A stretch of DNA of 64,000 bases from an uncultured Acidobacteriia bacterium (GTDB taxonomy: Bacteria > Acidobacteriota > Terriglobia > Bryobacterales > Bryobacteraceae), in assembly GCA_903828455.1 (NCBI GenBank), contig CAIKMJ010000040.1:1-64000 (forward strand), in the 5' to 3' direction. Under the pieces are notes generated by a model. The model ran no database searches. It had not been told where the DNA came from and saw only the letters and a list, made by a program, of their open reading frames with translations. Below are positions 27,442 through 54,616 of this stretch, one piece after another. The position numbers were made by a program, and so were the translations under genes. The stretch's first letter is position 1. Each line of letters opens with the position of its first letter.

Positions 27442-28359
27442 ATGCCTGACAGCTCTTCGCTTCTCCGCCGGACATTTCTCGGGATCGGCGGCGCCGCCGC
27501 GGCCGTCCACGCCAGCCGCGCCTTTGCGTTCGCCCCGCAGTCCGCTGCTGTCTCCGCCGCTGGCTCCGCCGCAACGGGCATCAAGGTCGAAAAAAATGTC
27601 GTCGTCGGCAAAGCCGGCGATACCGATCTGCATTGCGACATCTACCGTCCGCCCGCCGGCACCGAGAAGCGCATGGCCCTCATCCACTTTCACGGCGGCG
27701 GCTTTGTCGGAGGCAACAAAGAGCTGCTCGCCAACCGCGTTACGCAGATCACCGGCCGCGGCTACGTCTCCGTCACCGCGCAGTACCGCCTCGCCGGCGT
27801 CGCGAAGTGGCCGTCTCAGATCGATGACGCCGTCACCCACATCCGCTGGGTGCGCAGCCACGCCGATTCCCTCGGCATCGACCCCAACCGCATCGCCCTC
27901 GTCGGCTACTCCGCCGGCGGTCACATCGCCCTCTTCGCCGCCGGCCAGCCCGACCTCGGCCTCGCCGCCTGCGTCGCCTTCTACCCGGCAACGAATCTGG
28001 AGAAGGCCGCCGCCCAGCTCATGCCCCCCGGCAGCGATGCCGAGGCCCTGAAAAACGCCAGCCCCCTGTCCCGCATCCGCGAAGGCTACCCGCCCACCGT
28101 TCTGTTCCACGGCCTCGCCGACACCACCGTCGAGCCCGCAAACAGCCAGCGCCTCCTGCAGACACTTCGCGCCGCCAAAGTCCCCTCCGAACTGCATACC
28201 TTCGACGGCGCGATTCACGCCTTCGATGTCGACCCCACCTTCGCCGAGGCCTGCGCCGGCCTCACCGACTTCTTCCTCGACCGCCAGGTGCTGCATCCTC
28301 GCACCCACCCCTCGGGGATGCCGATTGCCGCTGATTTGAGGAAGCAAACGCTCGCCTGA
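27442..28359 (+). CDS. Secreted alpha/beta hydrolase (esterase/lipase-like)
   Basis: 305 residues. The N-terminus has a Tat-like signal (RRTFLGIGGAAAAVHASRA). The hydrolase core shows the oxyanion motif IHFHGGGFVGG, nucleophile elbow GYSAGGH, acid in FHGLADTTVEP and catalytic histidine in GAIHAFD. This is the hormone-sensitive-lipase/BD-FAE-like branch of carboxylesterases. TAGAAT ends six bases before the ATG and there is no Shine-Dalgarno, which fits a leaderless mRNA. It diverges from the DUF2306 gene and converges on the cupin gene. Confidence 0.88.
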   Translation: MPDSSSLLRRTFLGIGGAAAAVHASRAFAFAPQSAAVSAAGSAATGIKVEKNVVVGKAGDTDLHCDIYRPPAGTEKRMALIHFHGGGFVGGNKELLANRVTQITGRGYVSVTAQYRLAGVAKWPSQIDDAVTHIRWVRSHADSLGIDPNRIALVGYSAGGHIALFAAGQPDLGLAACVAFYPATNLEKAAAQLMPPGSDAEALKNASPLSRIREGYPPTVLFHGLADTTVEPANSQRLLQTLRAAKVPSELHTFDGAIHAFDVDPTFAEACAGLTDFFLDRQVLHPRTHPSGMPIAADLRKQTLA

Positions 28360-40864: not shown

Positions 40865-41503
40865 ATGGCTATTGGGGCGTTAGCGGCGGTCTGGGGCCGG
40901 GAGCAATCCGGGCACCGGGCTTTCGGGCAGAGGCCGGGGGGCGAACTGGACGTCGACAGCACAATCGTCGGGCGGTGTCTCAGCGGCGACGACGCGGCGT
41001 GGGAGGAACTGGTCCGGACCCACACGCGCCGGGTCTACGGGCTCTGCTACCGCTTCACCGGCCGCGAATCGGAGGCCCAGGACCTCACGCAGGAAGTCTT
41101 CCTCCGCGTCTTCCGCGCCCTCGGAAGCTTCCGTTCCGACGAAGGTTCGTTCGTCACCTGGCTCACGCGTCTGACCCGCAATCTGCTGATCGATCACTAC
41201 CGGCGGACCCGCAACGAGCGCATCACCGAGTCCATCGAACAGGAAACGCCGCGCTTCGACGAAGGCTTCCGTTCCACCAGCCGCCCCGAAGCCATGCTGG
41301 CGGGCCGCGAGGCGAGCGAAATCCTCCAGTCGGCGCTGAGCCGCCTCACGCCCGAACTGCGGGAGACGGTCATCCTCCGCGATCTGCAGGAAATGGATTA
41401 TAAGGAAATCGCCGGCGTGCTGGCGATTCCCGAAGGCACGGTGAAATCGCGGCTCAACCGCGGGCGCGCCGAACTGGGCCGCCTTCTGAAGAAGTACCGG
41501 TGA
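40865..41503 (+). CDS. ECF-type RNA polymerase sigma factor
   Basis: 212 residues. Region 2 is clear (YGLCYRFTGRESEAQDLTQEVFLRVFRALGSF, then WLTRLTRNLLIDHYRR), as is region 4 (LTPELRETVILRDLQEMDYKEIAGVLAIPEGTVKSRLNRGR). The first 28 residues are an unusual extension. It ends with a GTGA overlap into the anti-sigma gene. The operon content suggests control of an envelope response. Confidence 0.96.
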   Translation: MAIGALAAVWGREQSGHRAFGQRPGGELDVDSTIVGRCLSGDDAAWEELVRTHTRRVYGLCYRFTGRESEAQDLTQEVFLRVFRALGSFRSDEGSFVTWLTRLTRNLLIDHYRRTRNERITESIEQETPRFDEGFRSTSRPEAMLAGREASEILQSALSRLTPELRETVILRDLQEMDYKEIAGVLAIPEGTVKSRLNRGRAELGRLLKKYR

Positions 41504-42102
41504 GCGACTTGCTGAACTGCGCACAATTCGGGATCCTGCTGGCCGATTACCTCGACGGCACGCTCGCCGCCGGGGAGCGCGACGCCCTGCTGCGCCATCG
41601 CGACAGCTGCCCGGAGTGCGCCATGCTCGCCGAAGATGCCGAAGCGGCTCTGGCGCTGATGGAGCGCGTGGCCGAGGCCGACCCCCCGCCGGTGCTCTGC
41701 GCGCAGATCCTGGCGGCAACCACCGGCAGCTGGACTTTGAAACTCCGCAGCGGCGGCGTACGCGGATGGATCAACCGTACCTTCGCCCCGGTCCTGCAGC
41801 CGCGCGTGGTGATGGGCGTCCTGCTCGCCGCCATGTCCGTGGCGATTCTGCTGCTGGGTCCGCTGCTGCACGGCGACCCGCGGCAGAACGCCGCGCCTCT
41901 GCAGGCCGATCTGTCGCCGGCCCGCGTGTGGAATGCGCTCGACAACCGCACGAACCGCATTGTGGATCGCGCGCTGCACGGCTACGAGAGTATGCGGCTG
42001 GTGTATGAGGTTCGGACGCAGCTCGAAGACTGGCGGCTCCAGTGGCAGGGCGAAGAAGAGGCTACGGCCGATCTGCCGGCTTCCGAAAGGGGCCGGCCAT
42101 GA
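41500..42102 (+). CDS. Anti-sigma factor with zf-HC2 domain and one membrane helix
   Basis: 200 residues. The N-terminal zinc-binding anti-sigma domain reads FGILLADYLDGTLAAGERDALLRHRDSCPECAMLAED (H-x3-C-x2-C). A membrane helix follows at about 104-122 (VMGVLLAAMSVAILLLGPLL) and the C-terminal part is outside. It would hold the sigma factor at the membrane until a signal acts. The GTG start overlaps the sigma stop and its own stop overlaps the next ATG, both by four bases. Confidence 0.93.
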   Translation: MSDLLNCAQFGILLADYLDGTLAAGERDALLRHRDSCPECAMLAEDAEAALALMERVAEADPPPVLCAQILAATTGSWTLKLRSGGVRGWINRTFAPVLQPRVVMGVLLAAMSVAILLLGPLLHGDPRQNAAPLQADLSPARVWNALDNRTNRIVDRALHGYESMRLVYEVRTQLEDWRLQWQGEEEATADLPASERGRP

Positions 42103-42869
42103 ACTGCGCCACACACCCGGAAGCCGCCGCCGCCGCCTACTGCCGCGAGTGCGGCAGGCCCCTGTGCGAACAGTGCCGCCGGCCCGCCCTCGGCTCCATT
42201 TTTTGCGACGAACATCTGCCGGCCGCCCCCGAGCCTGAGCCCTCGTCCATCCCGCCCGTCAGCTTTCTGCCGCCCCTCGGCGCCCACGGTTCGCCCTGCG
42301 CGGGCGCGCCCCCTGACTCTGGCGGAACCGGTCCAGCCGCCGCTCCCGCCGGGCCCTCTGCGCAAACCTGGCCGCCGCCGCCCGATCACGGCCCGAATCC
42401 GGCGCTGGCCTTCGCGCTCGGCTTCATTCCCGGCGTCGGGGCCATCTACAACGGCCAGTACGCCAAGGGGCTGATTCACGCGGTCATTTTCGGCTTGCTT
42501 GTCAGCATTGCCGACACCTCGCACGGGCCGCTCGAAACCGTGAGCGGAATCGGCATCGCAGTCTGGATTTTCTATATGGCTTTTGAGGCGTATCACACGG
42601 CGCGGAACCGGCGGCGCGGCTTGCCGGTCGAGGAATTCTCCGGCTTCGATTTCGGCAGTCCCGCCGCCGGCGGACGCGCGCCCTCGCGCCTGCCGGGCGG
42701 GCCGCTGATTCTCATCGGCGTCGGCACGCTCTTACTGCTCGACACCACCGGGATTCTCAGCTTCGATGAACTGGGCCGCTACTGGCCCGTCGCTCTCATC
42801 GCCCTGGGCTTTTACCTGCTGTTCGAACGGCTCAGCGCCGAACGTGGCCGCCGGGAGGCCGGACGATGA
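42099..42869 (+). CDS. B-box zinc finger protein with LiaI/LiaF-like transmembrane hairpin
   Basis: 256 residues. The first 40 residues are a B-box-type zinc finger (C-x5-H, CRECG, CEQCRR and a final C-x2-H). A Pro-rich linker leads to two or three membrane helices (ALAFALGFIPGVGAIYNGQ, a TM2-like segment, and IGIAVWIFYMAFEAY), then a DUF5668-type hairpin (GGPLILIGVGTLLLLD and YWPVALIALGFYLLFERL). Function unknown. The N-terminal finger is probably cytoplasmic and may bind a partner. ATGA overlaps on both sides. Confidence 0.85.
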   Translation: MNCATHPEAAAAAYCRECGRPLCEQCRRPALGSIFCDEHLPAAPEPEPSSIPPVSFLPPLGAHGSPCAGAPPDSGGTGPAAAPAGPSAQTWPPPPDHGPNPALAFALGFIPGVGAIYNGQYAKGLIHAVIFGLLVSIADTSHGPLETVSGIGIAVWIFYMAFEAYHTARNRRRGLPVEEFSGFDFGSPAAGGRAPSRLPGGPLILIGVGTLLLLDTTGILSFDELGRYWPVALIALGFYLLFERLSAERGRREAGR

Positions 42870-43189
42870 ACGAACAAAGCCAGTGCCTCATGCGCTCCAT
42901 CACCGGTCCGGTGATCATGATCACCGTGGGCGTGCTGTTTGCTCTCGATCATTTCACGGAATTTAGTTTTCACCAGACCTGGCCGGTGCTGCTGATCGTG
43001 CTCGGGCTGCTGCGTCTCGGCGGCGGGGGCCGGCGCCGACGCTGGGATCGCCATCCCCATTACCCGCCGCCTCCACCGCCGCCTCCTCCACCACCTCCGC
43101 CGCCCCCGCCGCCCGCGTGGCATGACACGGGAGCGCATGACACGGGAGCGCATGACACGGGAGCGCATGACACGGGAGCCCCCCGGTGA
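42866..43189 (+). CDS. Small LiaI-like membrane protein with poly-Pro and pentapeptide-repeat tail
   Basis: 107 residues. A DUF5668-type hairpin (ITGPVIMITVGVLFALDHF and WPVLLIVLGLLRLGG) is followed by RRRRWDRHPHY, a run of 17 prolines and four copies of HDTGA, each coded by one unit of a 15-bp tandem repeat. ATG in an ATGA overlap with the preceding gene; the stop overlaps the next GTG. Function unknown. Confidence 0.85.
   Translation: MNEQSQCLMRSITGPVIMITVGVLFALDHFTEFSFHQTWPVLLIVLGLLRLGGGGRRRRWDRHPHYPPPPPPPPPPPPPPPPPAWHDTGAHDTGAHDTGAHDTGAPR
43121..43180. repeat. Four tandem 15-bp units coding for HDTGA
   Basis: CATGACACGGGAGCG at 43121, 43136 and 43151, and the same with a final C at 43166. 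The units are in frame and nearly identical at DNA level, so this is a young expansion. Confidence 0.95.
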
Positions 43190-44544
43190 GGCAGCGCAGC
43201 ATCGGCGGACCGCTTCTCCTCATCCTCCTCGGCACGGCGTTTCTGCTGCACAACTTTCGCCCCGAACTTCTGCCGCTTGCCCTGCTGGCCCGCTACTGGC
43301 CGATCCTGCTCATCGCCGCCGGTCTGCTCGGCCTCGTCGAAGCGCTGTTCCGCGCCGGACGCGGCCAGCCGCCAGGTCCCCGGCCCGGTGGCTTCGGCCG
43401 GGCCTGCTGGTGGATCGCCATCGCCGTCGTCTGCCTCGCCGTGTTCGGCCGCCGCGTGAGCTGGAACACATCGCGCCTCGACGCCCCGCGCTTCGCCATG
43501 TTCGGCAACGACTGGGATTACGACGTCAACCTCACCAGCAACGCCACCGGCGTGAAGCGCATCGTGTTCGACGGTCTGCGCGGCAACCTGGCAATCCGCG
43601 GCGAGGAAGCGAGCGGCGACGTCCGCGCCACCGGCCGCAAGACCATTCGCGCCCTGAGCCGCGGCGCCGCCGACCTGGCCGACCGCCGCTTCTCCCTCCG
43701 CATGGACCGCGAAGGCGACACCCTCTTTATCCGCGCCGCTGCCCCAGCCATTCCCGTTCTGCCCATCCCCGATTCCGCCCAGTTCTCCGCCGACCTGCAG
43801 GTCGTCGCTCCCAAGGGCGTCGCCGTCGAATCGCGCGCCCGGTCGGGCGAATTTTCGGTGGACGATCTGGACGGGCCCGTCAGCGTCGCCGCCGGCCGCG
43901 GCGATGTCCGCCTGAACCACATCGGCGGGGACGTGCGGATCACCGGTTCGCGCGGCGGCCTGCTCCATGCCTCCGACGTGAAGGGCGCCCTCTTCATGCA
44001 GGGCAGGGGAAGCGACCTCGAACTGATCACCGTCGCCGGGCCGGTGACGATCGAAGGCGAATACTCGGGCTCTCTGGAATTTCGCGCCCTCGCCGCCGCG
44101 CTGCGGTTTAAATCCTCCCGCACCGAACTGCGCGCCGAAGCCGTGCCGGGCAGCGTCACGCTCGACCTCGGCGACCTGCATCTCAACAACGTCGCCGGCC
44201 CCGTTTACTTCCAGACCACTTCGCGCGACGTTCACGCGGTGGACGTCTCCGGCTCGCTCGAACTCAGCGTAAACCGCGGCGACCTTGAAATTACCGCAAC
44301 CCGCGCGCCCCTTGCGCGGATCGAGGCGAAGACCGGCAATGGCGATATCGAGCTAACCCTGCCCGCCGCCGCCCCGTTCGACCTCAACGCCACCACCGCC
44401 CAGGGGGACATCGACAACGGCTTCGGCGGCGGCCTCGGGACACGCACCGAGGGGCGGCGGAAGACGCTGCTCGGGCGCAGCGGCAACGGCCCGCGAATCT
44501 CCGTTTCCACCGAACGCGGCGCGATTTCCTTGAAGAGGGGCTGA
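43186..44544 (+). CDS. LiaI/LiaF-like hairpin plus DUF4097 beta-helix domain protein
   Basis: 452 residues. The N-terminus is a DUF5668-type hairpin (IGGPLLLILLGTAFLLHNF and YWPILLIAAGLLGLVEALF) followed by another helix (CWWIAIAVVCLAVFG). The rest is a repetitive beta-structure of the DUF4097 (putative adhesin) type with strands such as GDVRLNHIGGDVRITGSRG, AKTGNGDIELTLP and STERGAISLKRG. The homologous LiaF/toastrack-type proteins take part in envelope-stress sensing. Last of the five genes joined by 4-base overlaps (GTG at 43186). Confidence 0.88.
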   Translation: MRQRSIGGPLLLILLGTAFLLHNFRPELLPLALLARYWPILLIAAGLLGLVEALFRAGRGQPPGPRPGGFGRACWWIAIAVVCLAVFGRRVSWNTSRLDAPRFAMFGNDWDYDVNLTSNATGVKRIVFDGLRGNLAIRGEEASGDVRATGRKTIRALSRGAADLADRRFSLRMDREGDTLFIRAAAPAIPVLPIPDSAQFSADLQVVAPKGVAVESRARSGEFSVDDLDGPVSVAAGRGDVRLNHIGGDVRITGSRGGLLHASDVKGALFMQGRGSDLELITVAGPVTIEGEYSGSLEFRALAAALRFKSSRTELRAEAVPGSVTLDLGDLHLNNVAGPVYFQTTSRDVHAVDVSGSLELSVNRGDLEITATRAPLARIEAKTGNGDIELTLPAAAPFDLNATTAQGDIDNGFGGGLGTRTEGRRKTLLGRSGNGPRISVSTERGAISLKRG

Positions 44545-44574: not shown

Positions 44575-46032
44575 GTGGAAAGGCAGCGCGCCGCCGCCCG
44601 GCACAGGTCTCGGGAAAAGCGGCTGACTCTCGTCGAACCCGTGTCTGAATCTTTGCTCGATAAATCGCCCGATCAATCGCCCGATCAATCGCCCGACGCC
44701 TTGCTCCCCGCCACGCCCGGCGTCACGCCCGGCGCCGAGTCGGCTGCATCGCCGGCGTCGCCCGCCGGGCCCCCCGCGCACGATCCCCGGAAACACGACA
44801 ACATCCTGCCCCTGCTCGGCCTGTTGGGCAAGAGCGATGAGGCGCGAGCGGGCGACTCCGGCAAAGCCGGCCACGCGCACGCCGAGCACGCGCACGCCGA
44901 GCACGAGCACGCCGAGCACGAGCACGCCGAGCACGAAAAAGCCGAGCACGAAAAGGCCGAAAAAGAAGCCGAGCGCGAACTCGCGCGACTCCGCCACATG
45001 CTGGAAGAGCAGCGTCGGGCCATGCTCCAGGCCATCCAGGCGTCGGCGGAGCTGGAAAATCAGCTCAACCAGACACGCGGCCAACTCGCCAGCGCGCAGA
45101 GCGAACTGGATCAGAAAAAGAGCCAGTACGCCGCCGCCCCGCCGAGAGAGTTTCGTCAGAACATCGCCACCCAGTCCGCCGAGATTGCCACGTTGCGGGC
45201 AAACCTGCAGCAGACTGAGAAGCAGATGGCGCGGCTTCGGCACATCCGCGAGACGGAACAGCGCAAGGCGTCGCACCGGGTGGAGGAACTGGCGGCCGAA
45301 CTGGCGTCGGTTCAGTCACAGACGCGGCTGAATCGCGGTTTCTGGAGCCGGCGCGGCTGGCTCACGGCGATGCTCGCCGTGGCGACGGGCGGTGCCATAG
45401 TCGCGGGCGCAATCGCCTGGTATCAGAAGGCCTGGGTCCCGGCGGGCAGGGAAGCGGCAACAGCGGCGGTGACGGCCGGTTCGTCGTCCGGAGGCAGCGG
45501 GGCAACGGACAACGTTTCCGAGGGCAGTGTCTCAAACGGCAGTGTGTCACCGGGCGGTGTGTCACCGGGCAGTGTGTCGCCCGGCAGTGTGTCACCCGTT
45601 CCTGGATCGCAGCTCAGCGCCGCGCAGGTCGCAGGCGGGCCGTCTTCCGGTTCTCCCGCCAGCCCGGCCGGGGCCGCAGCGGAGATTCGGGTGGCGCGGG
45701 GCACTGGTGCCGCCGGGGCGGCAGCCGGCGCGCCGAACGTTGCCGCGCTGCGCCGCGCGCGCACTTCGACACCGGGCCGTCCTCCGCCGCCCGCCGCCAG
45801 CGGACACCCCGATTTTTCCGGCGCGCTCGACCGTCTGGATTACGCCCTGCAGGCCTTTCCCGGCGTCAAACCGGAAACCGTTCTCCACGCCGTCTACCAG
45901 AGCAACCGGCAGTGCGCCCTGTTGTGGAATCAGGGACATCCGGCTCTCATTTACGGCAGCGGATCGGTGACGAAGGATTCGCTTGCCTCGGCGCTGTCGA
46001 ACTGCGCCGACGCTGTCGAAAATCTGCGCTAA
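44575..46032 (+). CDS. Single-pass membrane protein with His/Glu repeats, coiled coil and unknown two-cysteine C-terminal domain
   Basis: 485 residues, family not recognised. Order: three DQSP-type units (residues about 29-40), six His-rich pentapeptides of the HAHAE/HEHAE/HEKAE type (about 100-129), a long coiled coil (to about 250), one membrane helix (GWLTAMLAVATGGAIVAGAIAWY, about 262-284), five GSVSP-type units (about 317-341), a Gly/Ala/Pro linker and a globular C-terminus of about 80 residues with C447 and C477. That last part can be aligned with the protein coded next. The N-terminal half should be cytoplasmic and the C-terminus outside. The start is GTG 44575 without a clear Shine-Dalgarno; it lies 30 bases after the sigma operon. 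Confidence 0.75.
   Translation: MERQRAAARHRSREKRLTLVEPVSESLLDKSPDQSPDQSPDALLPATPGVTPGAESAASPASPAGPPAHDPRKHDNILPLLGLLGKSDEARAGDSGKAGHAHAEHAHAEHEHAEHEHAEHEKAEHEKAEKEAERELARLRHMLEEQRRAMLQAIQASAELENQLNQTRGQLASAQSELDQKKSQYAAAPPREFRQNIATQSAEIATLRANLQQTEKQMARLRHIRETEQRKASHRVEELAAELASVQSQTRLNRGFWSRRGWLTAMLAVATGGAIVAGAIAWYQKAWVPAGREAATAAVTAGSSSGGSGATDNVSEGSVSNGSVSPGGVSPGSVSPGSVSPVPGSQLSAAQVAGGPSSGSPASPAGAAAEIRVARGTGAAGAAAGAPNVAALRRARTSTPGRPPPPAASGHPDFSGALDRLDYALQAFPGVKPETVLHAVYQSNRQCALLWNQGHPALIYGSGSVTKDSLASALSNCADAVENLR
44872..44961. repeat. Six tandem 15-bp units coding for His-rich pentapeptides
   Basis: Units start at 44872, 44887, 44902, 44917, 44932 and 44947 and code for HAHAE, HAHAE, HEHAE, HEHAE, HEKAE and HEKAE. 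The ten histidines could bind metal, but this is only a possibility. Confidence 0.93.
45523..45597. repeat. Five tandem 15-bp units coding for GSVSP-type pentapeptides
   Basis: Units start at 45523, 45538, 45553, 45568 and 45583; consensus GGCAGTGTGTCACCG. They lie just outside the membrane helix of the same protein. Confidence 0.93.
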
Positions 46033-46098
46033 GGCGTTCCGCTGGCTCAATTTTTGCTCTAAGCCTCACCCGCCGGTCCGATAAGTCTTCAACAAGAC

Positions 46099-47064
46099 AT
46101 GCAGACCGGCGCCGGCAACGGCACTGAATCCGTCCTGCGCCCCGCCCGCGCGGGGAGGGCGGGGAAACGCCTCGCAGCAGCAATCGCGCCCTGCCCTGCG
46201 CTCCACAGCGCCGCCGGTGCCGGCAGCGGTAACGATGACCGCGTGTTGCGGAAGCGGCCTGGAAAGGGGAATCGCAGGAGGCTGGGCGTGGCGGTGCTCG
46301 TGGTGGCCGCCGGAGTCCTGCTGCAGACGCTGCGCGAGGCGCTCCCCCGCAACGCCGCACCCGAGCAACTCTTTCCCCCGCTGGCCACCGAACCGCCCGA
46401 TCTCGAACGGGCCGGCGGCGCGGAGGGCGACTCGGGGCTGCGCCGGTTCGCCCTCCTGCCTGCCCAAAGGCCGCCGGAGCCTACGCCTCAACCGCTGCCG
46501 AACAGCGTTGCGGGCGGAGCAGAAAGGCTCGGCGAGGCTCTGTCCGTCTATCCCCAGCCGCAGTGGCCGGAAATCCTGGGGAAAATCCGAAAAATGCTCG
46601 GCCCGCAAACCTGCCCCTTCCTTTGGGTCGACGGCGGTTTTACCTTTATCCTCCCGGAAGCCGCTCCCGGCGCATTTGCTTCAGCACCAGCCGCTTCCGC
46701 AGCAGTCCGGCCCGAAAACGCCGCGCCAGAGAATGCCGCGCCCGCAGCAGCTCCGCCCGCGACAGCCCCGCCCGCGACAGCCTCGCCCGCAACAGCCCAG
46801 CCCGCAACAGCCCAGCCCGCAACAGCCCAGCCCGCAACAGCCCAGCCCGCAACAGCCCAGCCAGGACAAGCCCAGCCAGAAGCAACCCAGCCAGCAGCAA
46901 CCCAGCGAAGCAAAGCCGGTTCCGGAATTGCGTCGCTGCCCGCCAGTCTCGGCCGCTGCGCGCAGGCGGTGGCCCGCGCTCCCTACTGGAACGCCGTGTC
47001 GCCGAGTCCCGCCACGCCCGACCGGTCGAAGACCGCCACCAGCAGCCCTCCCGAAACCCGGTAG
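46099..47064 (+). CDS. Single-pass membrane protein with (PATAQ)n tract inside a two-cysteine domain
   Basis: 321 residues, family not recognised. A basic N-terminus leads to a membrane helix (RRLGVAVLVVAAGVLLQTL, about 60-80), a Pro-rich linker, and a domain with ALSVYPQPQWPEIL, C172 in TCPFLW, then a tract of 15-bp repeats, then SLPASLGRCAQAV with C287. Both cysteine segments match the C-terminus of the preceding protein, which supports this reading frame over competing frames. The 3' end overlaps the converging glycosyltransferase gene by 82 bases. No clear Shine-Dalgarno; the start could be a little different. Confidence 0.6.
   Translation: MQTGAGNGTESVLRPARAGRAGKRLAAAIAPCPALHSAAGAGSGNDDRVLRKRPGKGNRRRLGVAVLVVAAGVLLQTLREALPRNAAPEQLFPPLATEPPDLERAGGAEGDSGLRRFALLPAQRPPEPTPQPLPNSVAGGAERLGEALSVYPQPQWPEILGKIRKMLGPQTCPFLWVDGGFTFILPEAAPGAFASAPAASAAVRPENAAPENAAPAAAPPATAPPATASPATAQPATAQPATAQPATAQPATAQPGQAQPEATQPAATQRSKAGSGIASLPASLGRCAQAVARAPYWNAVSPSPATPDRSKTATSSPPETR
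46741..46905. repeat. Eleven tandem 15-bp units coding for PATAQ-type pentapeptides
   Basis: Five exact copies of CCCGCAACAGCCCAG (46786-46860) are flanked by three diverged units before (from 46741) and three after (to 46905). The exact core with diverged edges is the usual sign of slippage-driven expansion from the middle. Confidence 0.93.
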
Positions 47065-48554
47065 TTCATGTGCCAGCCCGCCAGTTCCGGCAGGCCGAGC
47101 AGGAACTTCAGCCAGACGTTGGCATTTTCCCCGCCGCCGAACAGAATAAACCGGTCGCCGCGCGTCAGCGTATCGGCCGCCAGTTGTTTCATGTAGGTTT
47201 GGTCCTCCGGCAACGTGCTGAACGGGAACGGAATAATCCGGCCCCTCACGGGGTAGACGTAAAGCTGGCTGTAGAGAAACCCGGGCACCTTGTAGTCCGG
47301 CGTCCAGTTGGGGCGGATGGCTTCGGCGAAACCGGACGGCACCACGACCGGCGTATCCGGCCGCGTCGCCGCCAGATCGGCCAGGGTTGCCATGCCGCGC
47401 CAGTCTTCAAACTGGGCATGATTCGGCCACACCGCCTCCCAGTGTCCCGCCACGGCCAGCGCCGCGAGCGCCAGTGCCGCGGCGGCAGGCTTCCACAATC
47501 GCGCGGGCAGGAATGCGGCCGCCAGTGCCGTCGCCGCCAGCGCGGCTCCGGGCAGGGCGGGGGACACGTACCTCACCAGGAACATGCCTGTCCCCGTCAC
47601 CCGCGACGCCCCAAATACCAGCACCGGCATCGCGAGCCACCAAACCGCCACCACCCCCAGCGAGTTGAACGGCGCCGACCGCGCCCTCTCCAACCGGTAC
47701 AACAGGCTCGCCACCACCGCCACCGCGCCCACTCCGGCAACCTCCTCCCACGCCAGCGACGTGCCGAAGTAGTGCAGTCCAACCACGCGGGCCACAATAT
47801 GCGTCTCGGCATTTCGGAAAAGCCCCAGTGCCCGGATCGCCACCGGGATCAGTGACGCCGACGTGACGGCCAGCAGCACCAGCGCCTGCGTCCACGTTGC
47901 CCGGCGTTCCCTGCGCGCCATCCTCAAAAGGCCGCACAGCAGGTAAACCGGGTAGAACGCCCAGAACGCCAGGTGCACGCGCCACAGCAGCGCCGCCATC
48001 AGCCAGAACAGCCCGGCGTCGAGCCACTCGCCCGAATCGATCCACCGGAGCAGCAGCCACATGCTGGCCGTCGCGATGAAGATCCCCAGCGCATACGGGC
48101 GCGCGTCGCCCGCGTAGAAATTGAAATCCGCGATGCAAAGGCAGCCGAACACCGCAAACCACGCCGCTTCCGGCGCAATGAGGCGCGCCGCGATGCGGGC
48201 CGTAAACCACAGCGCCATCGCCGCCAGCAACAGCGAGGGCAGCCGGTAGGCGATCTCCGAATCTCCAACCATCCGGTGGATGGCCTGCGGCGCGTAGTTG
48301 TAGATCGTGGCCGAAAGCTGCGGCGCCACGTTGAACGACGGGTCGTCGGGATGCTGCGCCAGCATCACCGTCGCGGCTTCATCCAGCCAGAAACTGCTCG
48401 GCAGCGGCATGATCCACATCCGCCCCAAACAAACGGCCAGCAACAACACCAGGTACCAGTCGGATCGCAGTCGGCCTCGCCAGCCACCCGGTACCGCTTC
48501 CACGGTTGCGGCCGATCCGGAGCCCGTCGGCGTAGACGTCACCGATATTTCCAT
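46983..48554 (-). CDS. GT-C-fold glycosyltransferase (GT39/ArnT-like, PMT_2 type)
   Basis: 523 residues with about ten membrane helices. The first external loop has the acidic motif FWLDEAATVML; later YRLPSLLLAAMALWF and a D-A-R-P-Y-A-L segment in NFYAGDARPYAL fit family 39-like mannosyl or aminoarabinose transferases that use lipid-linked sugar donors. The C-terminal 130 residues are periplasmic. Acceptor unknown. It converges on and overlaps the repeat protein gene. Confidence 0.85.
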   Translation of the reverse strand: MEISVTSTPTGSGSAATVEAVPGGWRGRLRSDWYLVLLLAVCLGRMWIMPLPSSFWLDEAATVMLAQHPDDPSFNVAPQLSATIYNYAPQAIHRMVGDSEIAYRLPSLLLAAMALWFTARIAARLIAPEAAWFAVFGCLCIADFNFYAGDARPYALGIFIATASMWLLLRWIDSGEWLDAGLFWLMAALLWRVHLAFWAFYPVYLLCGLLRMARRERRATWTQALVLLAVTSASLIPVAIRALGLFRNAETHIVARVVGLHYFGTSLAWEEVAGVGAVAVVASLLYRLERARSAPFNSLGVVAVWWLAMPVLVFGASRVTGTGMFLVRYVSPALPGAALAATALAAAFLPARLWKPAAAALALAALAVAGHWEAVWPNHAQFEDWRGMATLADLAATRPDTPVVVPSGFAEAIRPNWTPDYKVPGFLYSQLYVYPVRGRIIPFPFSTLPEDQTYMKQLAADTLTRGDRFILFGGGENANVWLKFLLGLPELAGWHMNYRVSGGLLVAVFDRSGVAGLGDTAFQ

Positions 48555-48642: not shown

Positions 48643-49344
48643 TTAACCTGCTCCGGTGACTGCGACTTCGGGTGCTTTTTCTGTAGGCGTTTGTTCTGTC
48701 ACCTCCTGCCCGCTGCCCGCCGCCTCCGGCGTTTCCGCCGCTTGCTCGGTCAACTCCGGCGCGCTGCCGGCATCGCTCGCTGCCGGACTGCCGCTGCTTC
48801 CCTCTTCGCCGCTTGCCGCTTCGCCTCTTCCCTCGTCGCCGCGTCCCTCTTCGCCGCTTGCCGCTTCGCTGCTTCTCGCGTCGCCGCTTGCCGCTTCGCT
48901 GCCGGACTGCCCAGTCCCGGCATCCCGGCCCTCGGCGCTCGTTTCCTCTGCGTTCGTTCCCGGCTGCGGAGATCCGAGAAACCCATTCACCCGTTCCGCG
49001 AGGCGCGAGAACAATATCGGTTTCGTCTCATATCCGCTGAAGCCGGCCGAAACGGCATCGGTAATATTCTTCTGTCCTTTGAATCCGGTCAACGCCACGA
49101 TCGGAATCTTCGAAAGGCCCGATTCCGATCGGATCCGCCGCGCCGCTTCCCACCCGTCCATCTCCGGCATGTCCAGATCCATCAGGATCAGATCCGGCTT
49201 TTCGGCGATCGCCATTTCCACGGCGCACATGCCGTCCGCCGCCTGGATCACGCGGTAGCCTTCGCGCTTGATGTAGGTGGACACCAGCGCGCGATTCACC
49301 GCATTGTCGTCCACTACGAGAATGCTTTTCATCGCTGTAGTCAT
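48643..49344 (-). CDS. CheY-like response regulator with long low-complexity tail
   Basis: 233 residues. The receiver (1-125) is intact: VVDDNAVNRAL, the phospho-acceptor aspartate in LILMDLDMPEMDG, the threonine in IVALTGFKG and the lysine in YETKPILFSRL. The last about 105 residues are acidic and repetitive, made of Glu, Ala, Ser and Gly in units such as EAASGEEGRGDEG. No output domain follows. Tail function unknown; its DNA has short repeats around 48780-48900. Confidence 0.9.
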   Translation of the reverse strand: MTTAMKSILVVDDNAVNRALVSTYIKREGYRVIQAADGMCAVEMAIAEKPDLILMDLDMPEMDGWEAARRIRSESGLSKIPIVALTGFKGQKNITDAVSAGFSGYETKPILFSRLAERVNGFLGSPQPGTNAEETSAEGRDAGTGQSGSEAASGDARSSEAASGEEGRGDEGRGEAASGEEGSSGSPAASDAGSAPELTEQAAETPEAAGSGQEVTEQTPTEKAPEVAVTGAG

Positions 49345-54210: not shown

Positions 54211-54570
54211 GTGCCCAAAGTGACCTTCCTCCCCGCCGGCGAATCCTTCGATGTCGATCTCGCAACGCTCCCTTATAAAGGGCACGGCAAGCCCGGCTCG
54301 CTGCTCGATATCGCCATGAACCACGGCTTCCATCTCGAGCATGCCTGCGGCGGCAGTTGCGCCTGCACCACCTGCCATGTCGTCGTGAAGGAAGGCGCCC
54401 TCAATCTCTCCGAAATGGAAGACGACGAAATGGATCGCGTCGAGCAGGCCGCCGACTATCAGCTGCACTCCCGCCTCGGCTGTCAGGCCGTCCTGAAGAA
54501 CAACGCAAAGGGCGATGTCGTTGTCGTCATCCCCGAGTGGAACCGCAACTACGTCAGCGAAGGTCACTAA
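54211..54570 (+). CDS. 2Fe-2S ferredoxin (adrenodoxin/ISC type)
   Basis: 119 residues. The cluster ligands are C-x5-C-x2-C in HACGGSCACTTCHVV plus the fourth cysteine in LGCQAV. The N-terminus PKVTFLPAGE fits the Isc-type ferredoxins (E. coli Fdx starts MPKIVILP). No other isc gene is near. The start is GTG 54211; TATACT ends six bases before it, so the mRNA is likely leaderless. The stop is inside a 15-bp tandem repeat. Confidence 0.92.
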   Translation: MPKVTFLPAGESFDVDLATLPYKGHGKPGSLLDIAMNHGFHLEHACGGSCACTTCHVVVKEGALNLSEMEDDEMDRVEQAADYQLHSRLGCQAVLKNNAKGDVVVVIPEWNRNYVSEGH

Positions 54571-54616
54571 ACCGAAAGCCACTAAACCGAAAGCCACCAA
54601 ACCGAAAGCCACCAAT
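54565..54616. repeat. Tandem 15-bp units containing the ferredoxin stop codon
   Basis: Units begin at 54565, 54580 and 54595 (CACTAAACCGAAAGC, then the same again, then CACC in place of CACT) with a partial fourth. The first includes the TAA at 54568-54570. Confidence 0.92.

Follow-up and report, generated by a model that had tools for sequence, protein, structure and literature searches.

A previously unnamed two-cysteine domain in two neighbouring reading frames of a Bryobacterales genome, interrupted by a 15-bp tandem repeat in the second

Analysis of the window, a stretch of 64,000 nucleotides from a contig of an uncultured Acidobacteriia bacterium, identified a new and narrowly distributed two-cysteine domain in the C-terminal parts of two neighbouring frames, ORF1 and ORF2, and the repeat that lies inside the second copy makes this domain more telling. 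Profile comparisons place both frames in one protein family of Bryobacterales. The observation had been made in a sequence-only reading of the window; it is confirmed as real and its interpretation mostly holds, apart from the idea that the two frames form a conserved pair. Both frames are present in the sequence as first described, with the following features.

44575-46032, forward strand: ORF1, 485 aa (147.5 bits against a profile of 20 frames of relatives)
44881-45342, forward strand: probable coiled-coil region of ORF1, residues about 103-256, aligned with relatives
45361-45417, forward strand: membrane helix of ORF1 at residues 263-281, with a 19-residue hydropathy of 1.94 (second-best segment 0.67)
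45805-46029, forward strand: two-cysteine domain of ORF1, located by profile matches and modelled as helix-helix-strand-strand-helix
45913-45915 and 46003-46005, forward strand: cysteine codons of ORF1 (C447 and C477)
46099-47064, forward strand: ORF2, 321 aa
46288-46344, forward strand: membrane helix of ORF2 at residues 64-82, with a 19-residue hydropathy of 1.82, aligned with the family profile
46504-46671, forward strand: first piece of the ORF2 domain (helices 1 and 2 and the hairpin), with a cysteine codon at 46612-46614
46740-46906, forward strand: repeat of ORF2, (PATAQ)n and variants, a 15-bp tandem in the loop that joins strand 2 to helix 3
46921-46983, forward strand: second piece of the ORF2 domain (helix 3; 8.2 bits; helix 153-173 of the model), with a cysteine codon at 46957-46959

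ORF1 consists of a charged helical N-terminal part, one membrane helix, a linker rich in Gly, Ser and Pro, and the C-terminal two-cysteine domain. The N-terminal part is probably a coiled coil, as suggested by its composition and by SMC and MscS_porin profiles, which match weakly over 44881-45342. ORF2 has a short N-terminus, one membrane helix, a Pro/Ala linker and the domain split by the repeat, in which TRF found a period of 15 with 8.2 copies at 46740-46862 and 3.5 copies at 46854-46906. The single membrane helix proposed to precede the domain in each protein was confirmed by hydropathy. The motifs that had been aligned by eye are found in the translations, namely ALQAFPGVKPETVL in ORF1 and ALSVYPQPQWPEIL in ORF2, followed around the first cysteine by CALLWNQG-HPAL-I and CPFLWVDG-GFTF-I, and around the second cysteine by SLASALSNCADAV and SLPASLGRCAQAV, respectively. 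The cysteine spacing is also as described, 30 residues between C447 and C477 in ORF1 and 115 residues between C172 and C287 in ORF2.

To avoid circularity, the relationship of the two C-termini was assessed with an 18-row alignment and profile of domain copies (A1) that includes ORF1 and not ORF2. The sequence-only reading had set a significant profile-profile match as one test of its alignment, and such a match was obtained: A1 scored 24.5 bits on ORF2, as two pieces in the expected order, residues 136-181 and 275-294, flanking the repeat tract, with 7.7 bits as the best score among 20,000 shuffled ORF2 sequences, and hhalign gave a probability of 90% (E 1.6e-6) for the first piece, the second being left unaligned. 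The profile matches both pieces in order in ORF2 as in ORF1. On its own the second piece of ORF2 is weak, but it is convincing since its order and place fit. ORF2 reached E 9.5e-6 in the round of an iterated search preceding its inclusion, and 46504-46647 of its first piece was matched at E 1.7e-4 in a search of this one genome. A longer profile, made from 20 stop-to-stop frames of relatives, one of them cut by a contig end, scored 39.9 bits on ORF2 from its membrane helix through the linker to the first piece, and 6.8 bits on its last helix; the best whole-sequence score in 5,000 ORF2 shuffles was 5.0 bits, and among the 58 genes called in the window the next best after ORF1 was 1.1 bits. The A5 alignment (24 rows, with divergent copies added and the cut fragments L039 and G017 left out) found two places at E <= 0.001 in the genome itself, ORF1 and the first piece of ORF2, in a search that scored 21 of 40 first-look candidates; an earlier A1 search had reported ORF1 alone.

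The family has a narrow distribution. With the ORF1 domain alone as the query, 16 of 101 genomes matched, 15 of them, including the genome itself, in the genus of the window. At the family level A1 matched 21 of 237 genomes: 17 of the 19 from this genus (one, G017, counted by a 24-residue piece at a contig end alone), one from another genus and three from a third. At the order level A5 matched 20 of 257 genomes (16 in the genus of the window), and among 396 genomes sampled across the phylum the window's own was the sole match. A search with a DNA pattern returned 16 stretches, seven of which hold the domain, all from acidobacterial MAGs by title. The other nine are taken as chance: two have a profile match (E 0.0018 and 0.0043) that is confined to 17 positions, roughly the pattern used for the search, and the remaining seven gave none at E 1. 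The relatives are recorded as MAGs under the labels uncultured Acidobacteriia, Bryobacterales or Terriglobia.

That the domain is unnamed, as first stated, was borne out for Pfam and NCBIfam. No fitting family was found in Pfam among 18 members (best E 0.023, in one member), in NCBIfam among 24 members (best E 0.062, in one member) or in PHROGs among 24 members (best E 0.034, in one member). In sequence searches of the PDB the best E-value was 0.74 for the ORF1 domain as query and 0.17 for the A1 profile. None of the 66 Foldseek matches of the ORF1 model in the PDB reached E 0.001 or better, nor did any match of this model in the BFVD, and the fold search of the PDB with the ORF2 model returned zero matches. 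Titles and abstract openings of the papers listed in literature searches contained nothing on the two-cysteine family or on 15-bp repeats in these bacteria, which does not prove that either is unpublished.

The N-terminal part of the family varies in length. ORF1 aligns with relatives in the coiled-coil region, while ORF2 and the divergent copy L066 align only from about the membrane region on; a coiled coil is probably present in ORF1 and its closer relatives, and the family as defined here does not require it. One membrane helix precedes the domain in both ORF1 and ORF2; the open frame of L071 has none, and in L069 and L070 the simple helix scan misplaced it. In L071 the frame with the domain (L071:2996-3573) adjoins a PilZ-like frame, a response regulator and a sensor-like gene, all named by eye.

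The domain comprises about 75 residues with two invariant cysteines and is predicted to fold as helix-helix-hairpin-helix. AlphaFold, given nine aligned sequences for ORF1 and ten for ORF2, placed the ORF1 elements at H14-25, H33-44, E49-52, E55-58 and H67-84 (mean pLDDT 74.6, pTM 0.60) and those of ORF2 at H8-21, H26-40, E47-50, E53-56 and H153-173 (mean pLDDT 65.1, pTM 0.45), with the repeat tract as low-confidence coil. The helix and strand blocks have mean pLDDT 75-88 in both models, and the ORF1 block with the loop before helix 3 has 58. The first cysteine lies just ahead of the first strand (C47 in the ORF1 model, C45 in the ORF2 model) and the second one inside the last helix (C77 and C160, respectively). 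The expected agreement is seen in the predicted order of elements and in the matching places of the cysteines, but the two models are not independent, as they share relatives and the alignment for ORF2 had already placed the last helix.

Both cysteines and the alanine following the second one are invariant in all 24 A5 rows and are kept in ORF2. We found no other cysteine C-terminal of the membrane helix in any of 25 uncut rows (26 listed, L039 excluded; our own reading, for which the membrane helix of L069 and L070 was located by eye, while the L071 frame contains none); some relatives have a cysteine inside the membrane helix itself. The loop before helix 3, which holds the repeat in ORF2, is one of two length-variable places in the aligned domains, and L066 and L067, which are closest to ORF2, lack the conserved tryptophan (both from A5). 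We infer that the two cysteines form a disulfide. Metal or cofactor binding or redox activity without a disulfide would agree with the finding of no DsbB or VKOR match in this genome and with weak matches to AhpC (E 0.062, one of 24 members) and 2-Cys peroxiredoxins (E 0.17). This alternative is nevertheless improbable: histidine is absent among the invariant and nearly invariant columns, the two cysteines are not arranged as CxxC, and the peroxiredoxin look-alike covers the region of the first cysteine only, with no thioredoxin-like model resulting. The profile of Thioredoxin_4, a DsbA-like family, has five matches in this genome.

The match between the two C-termini had also been taken to argue that both frames are real genes; homology upholds the genic origin of ORF2, while its functional state today does not follow. 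The true start of ORF2 is uncertain, the ATG having no clear ribosome-binding site by eye and an in-frame GTG being present at 46243. Its G+C contents by codon position (0.751, 0.664 and 0.726) give a weak codon signature, and the antisense frame over its first half (0.767, 0.578 and 0.783) looks more gene-like. A simple gene caller picked this antisense frame and not ORF2, and for this reason the 58 called genes include ORF1 and not ORF2. The end of ORF2 overlaps a convergent gene (46983-48554) by 82 bases (46983-47064). The product of that gene has 523 aa and a PMT_2-like match below the cut-off. Homology outweighs the evidence from codons, ribosome-binding site and overlap as far as genic origin is concerned, though it does not establish function.

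ORF2 could therefore be a decaying paralogue that lacks the coil, has a repeat in its domain, runs into the convergent gene and yields no working protein, which we consider rather unlikely. The ATG without a clear ribosome-binding site, the 82-base overlap, the weak codon signature beside a more gene-like antisense frame, the lack of matches to the first piece in 18 other genomes of the genus and the long ORF2 branch in the tree would all be expected from decay; however, the frame is open through 321 codons, the profile still recognises its membrane helix, its linker and the two domain pieces (39.9 and 6.8 bits), both cysteines and the C-A-x-A-V motif are kept, and the core blocks are predicted at pLDDT 75-88.

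The sequence-only reading had proposed to search related genomes for the pair, and there the idea failed: ORF1 and ORF2 are not a conserved unit, and a separate tandem pair occurs in one other genome. As for the second frame alone, its 43-aa first piece was not matched in the 18 other genomes of the genus (E <= 0.1), but divergent copies are present in two. Fourteen of the 20 genomes matched by A5 show one place and six show two, the latter being the window's own genome, G032 with the tandem pair, and G008, G011, G012 and G105, in which the copies lie on different contigs. These genomes are fragmented, and one G011 copy lies at the end of its contig, where a neighbour could be hidden.

In the tree ORF2 groups not with ORF1 but with the divergent copies L066 and L067 of two genomes of the same genus (support 81; 91 for L066 with L067). 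The tree rests on 80 columns, the ORF2 branch is long and the deep nodes have support of 27-59, so this placement is a lead and may be an artefact. A recent tandem duplication of ORF1 is a somewhat unlikely origin of ORF2. The two frames are 66 bases apart and are the sole two copies found in this genome, and the tandem copies of G032 are sisters (support 91), as such a duplication would predict; the grouping with L066 and L067 speaks against it, as does the alignment of ORF2 with the family only from the membrane region onward.

A constant functional partner was sought in the gene neighbourhoods and none was found: the neighbours differ among loci (for example, one set has glutamine synthetase with a sugar kinase, another a GTP-cyclohydrolase-like gene, and there are many others, all named by eye) and hence give no hint of function. 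Upstream of ORF1, 40865-44544 encodes an ECF sigma factor, a zf-HC2 protein, a B-box/LiaF-type membrane protein and a DUF4097 protein. A small LiaI-like protein encoded there contains (AHDTG)n repeats and an extended run of prolines. The ECF sigma factor, zf-HC2, LiaF-type and DUF4097 genes had no match at E 1e-15 in the loci of 23 relatives; the sole window gene matched there at this threshold lies elsewhere in the window (27442-28356).

The insert of ORF2 fits a repeat habit of this genome, in which arrays of the 15-bp type are several-fold denser than in the sampled relatives. In 344 kb of it, 53 tandem arrays were counted, and 26 of these have a period of 15, 30 or 45 (7.6 per 100 kb); without the window, 280 kb contain 36 arrays, 17 of them of this type (6.1 per 100 kb), taken from 14 of 15 fetched stretches, one 1.5-kb stretch being left out. 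Four samples from the same genus gave 1 of 5 arrays (98 kb), 1 of 3 (100 kb), 2 of 12 (140 kb) and 3 of 7 (209 kb), which is 1.0-1.4 per 100 kb, and samples of 140 kb each from another genus and another family gave 0 of 0 and 1 of 1, so that the six comparison samples together range from 0 to 1.4; the sampled stretches were hand-picked, not random. A first same-genus sample, which overlaps the others, had 5 of 12 arrays in 260 kb (1.9 per 100 kb), and the preference for period 15 may thus predate this species. ORF1 and several neighbouring genes also carry such arrays, the positions in the window being as follows.

43120-43179, 44872-44960 and 45523-45598 (both in ORF1), 46740-46906 (in ORF2), 48799-48899, 54565-54612 and others: arrays with periods of 15, 30 or 45 bp

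Only three of the 26 arrays lie outside called frames; others of this genome are in L119-L132. The array units are unrelated in sequence, which suggests a process favouring length rather than one spreading element. In the response regulator at 48643-49344 (reverse strand) 15- and 45-bp repeats encode a long repetitive C-terminal tail rich in Glu, Gly, Ala and Ser.

In 17 of 23 rows the membrane helix has more lysine and arginine on its N-terminal flank than on its C-terminal one (equal in three and fewer in three; L069-L071, where the scan missed the helix, were left out). This points to a cytoplasmic N-terminus and a periplasmic two-cysteine domain. We favour a protein that is anchored in the inner membrane and serves docking or binding in the periplasm: the coiled coil would oligomerise in the cytoplasm, the membrane helix would anchor the protein, the linker would reach into the periplasm, and the clamped domain would be the docking or binding module at the end of the tether. 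The disulfide would fasten the last helix to the beginning of the hairpin, and we propose that the domain may for this reason tolerate a long insert between the cysteines. ORF2 would be a coil-less paralogue from an old divergent branch, the loop of which grew by repeat slippage. The explanation as a whole, with a shared family, a periplasmic disulfide-clamped binding module and a loop of ORF2 grown by slippage, seems to us about evenly poised between right and wrong. A further-reaching version, which we regard as unlikely, is a periplasmic module born in this lineage, in which the disulfide clamps a variable loop and 15-bp growth extends a disordered arm with the fold intact, giving a display or tether length that could be tuned between species or strains.

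These results add a domain family that has no name so far, that A5 detects in 16 of the 19 genomes of one genus and that has no relative detected in the libraries searched, and a definite structural prediction that is easily testable. If the disulfide is true, ORF2 is a clear case of a tandem repeat grown within a folded domain between disulfide partners. They also indicate that one genome is unusually rich in 15-bp repeats.

Among known domains, the SpoIIE phosphatase domain (PF07228) matches the ORF1 domain weakly (E 0.016; 15.6 bits against a curated cut-off of 25) in one of 18 members, and this is taken as chance. The 2-Cys peroxiredoxins and AhpC share a short resemblance around the first cysteine, C-x-x-x-W-x-x-G, with an AhpC model match in one of 24 members, but the E-values are 0.06-0.7 and no thioredoxin fold is predicted for the two-cysteine domain.

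A terminal domain of the TolA/TonB type, belonging to a single-pass inner-membrane protein that spans the periplasm as in energy transduction, would have the same general plan from the membrane helix onward. The end of Escherichia coli TolA also has two cysteines, 25 residues apart; one lies in a strand and the other in a helix, and a disulfide joins them. We consider this identity very improbable, since hhalign against E. coli TolA gave a probability of 0.3%, TolA and TonB are absent among the best 50 of the 66 PDB Foldseek matches of the ORF1 model (a model of moderate confidence), and the probable coiled coil precedes the membrane helix instead of following it. The sequence profiles of TolA (PF06519) and TonB_C (PF03544) did not match the family, with no Pfam hit of either kind in the 18 A1 members, and the seven places matched by PF03544 in this genome are all outside the contig of the window. 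A weak TolA match in G010, below the cut-off, belongs to an ordinary TonB-like frame beside ExbB/ExbD-like genes (by eye) and not to a family member. The likeness to TolA domain III and the TonB C-terminal domain lies in the architecture, a single-pass membrane protein with a linker and a small terminal domain; the two-cysteine domain itself is predicted to differ in beginning with two helices and ending with its last helix.
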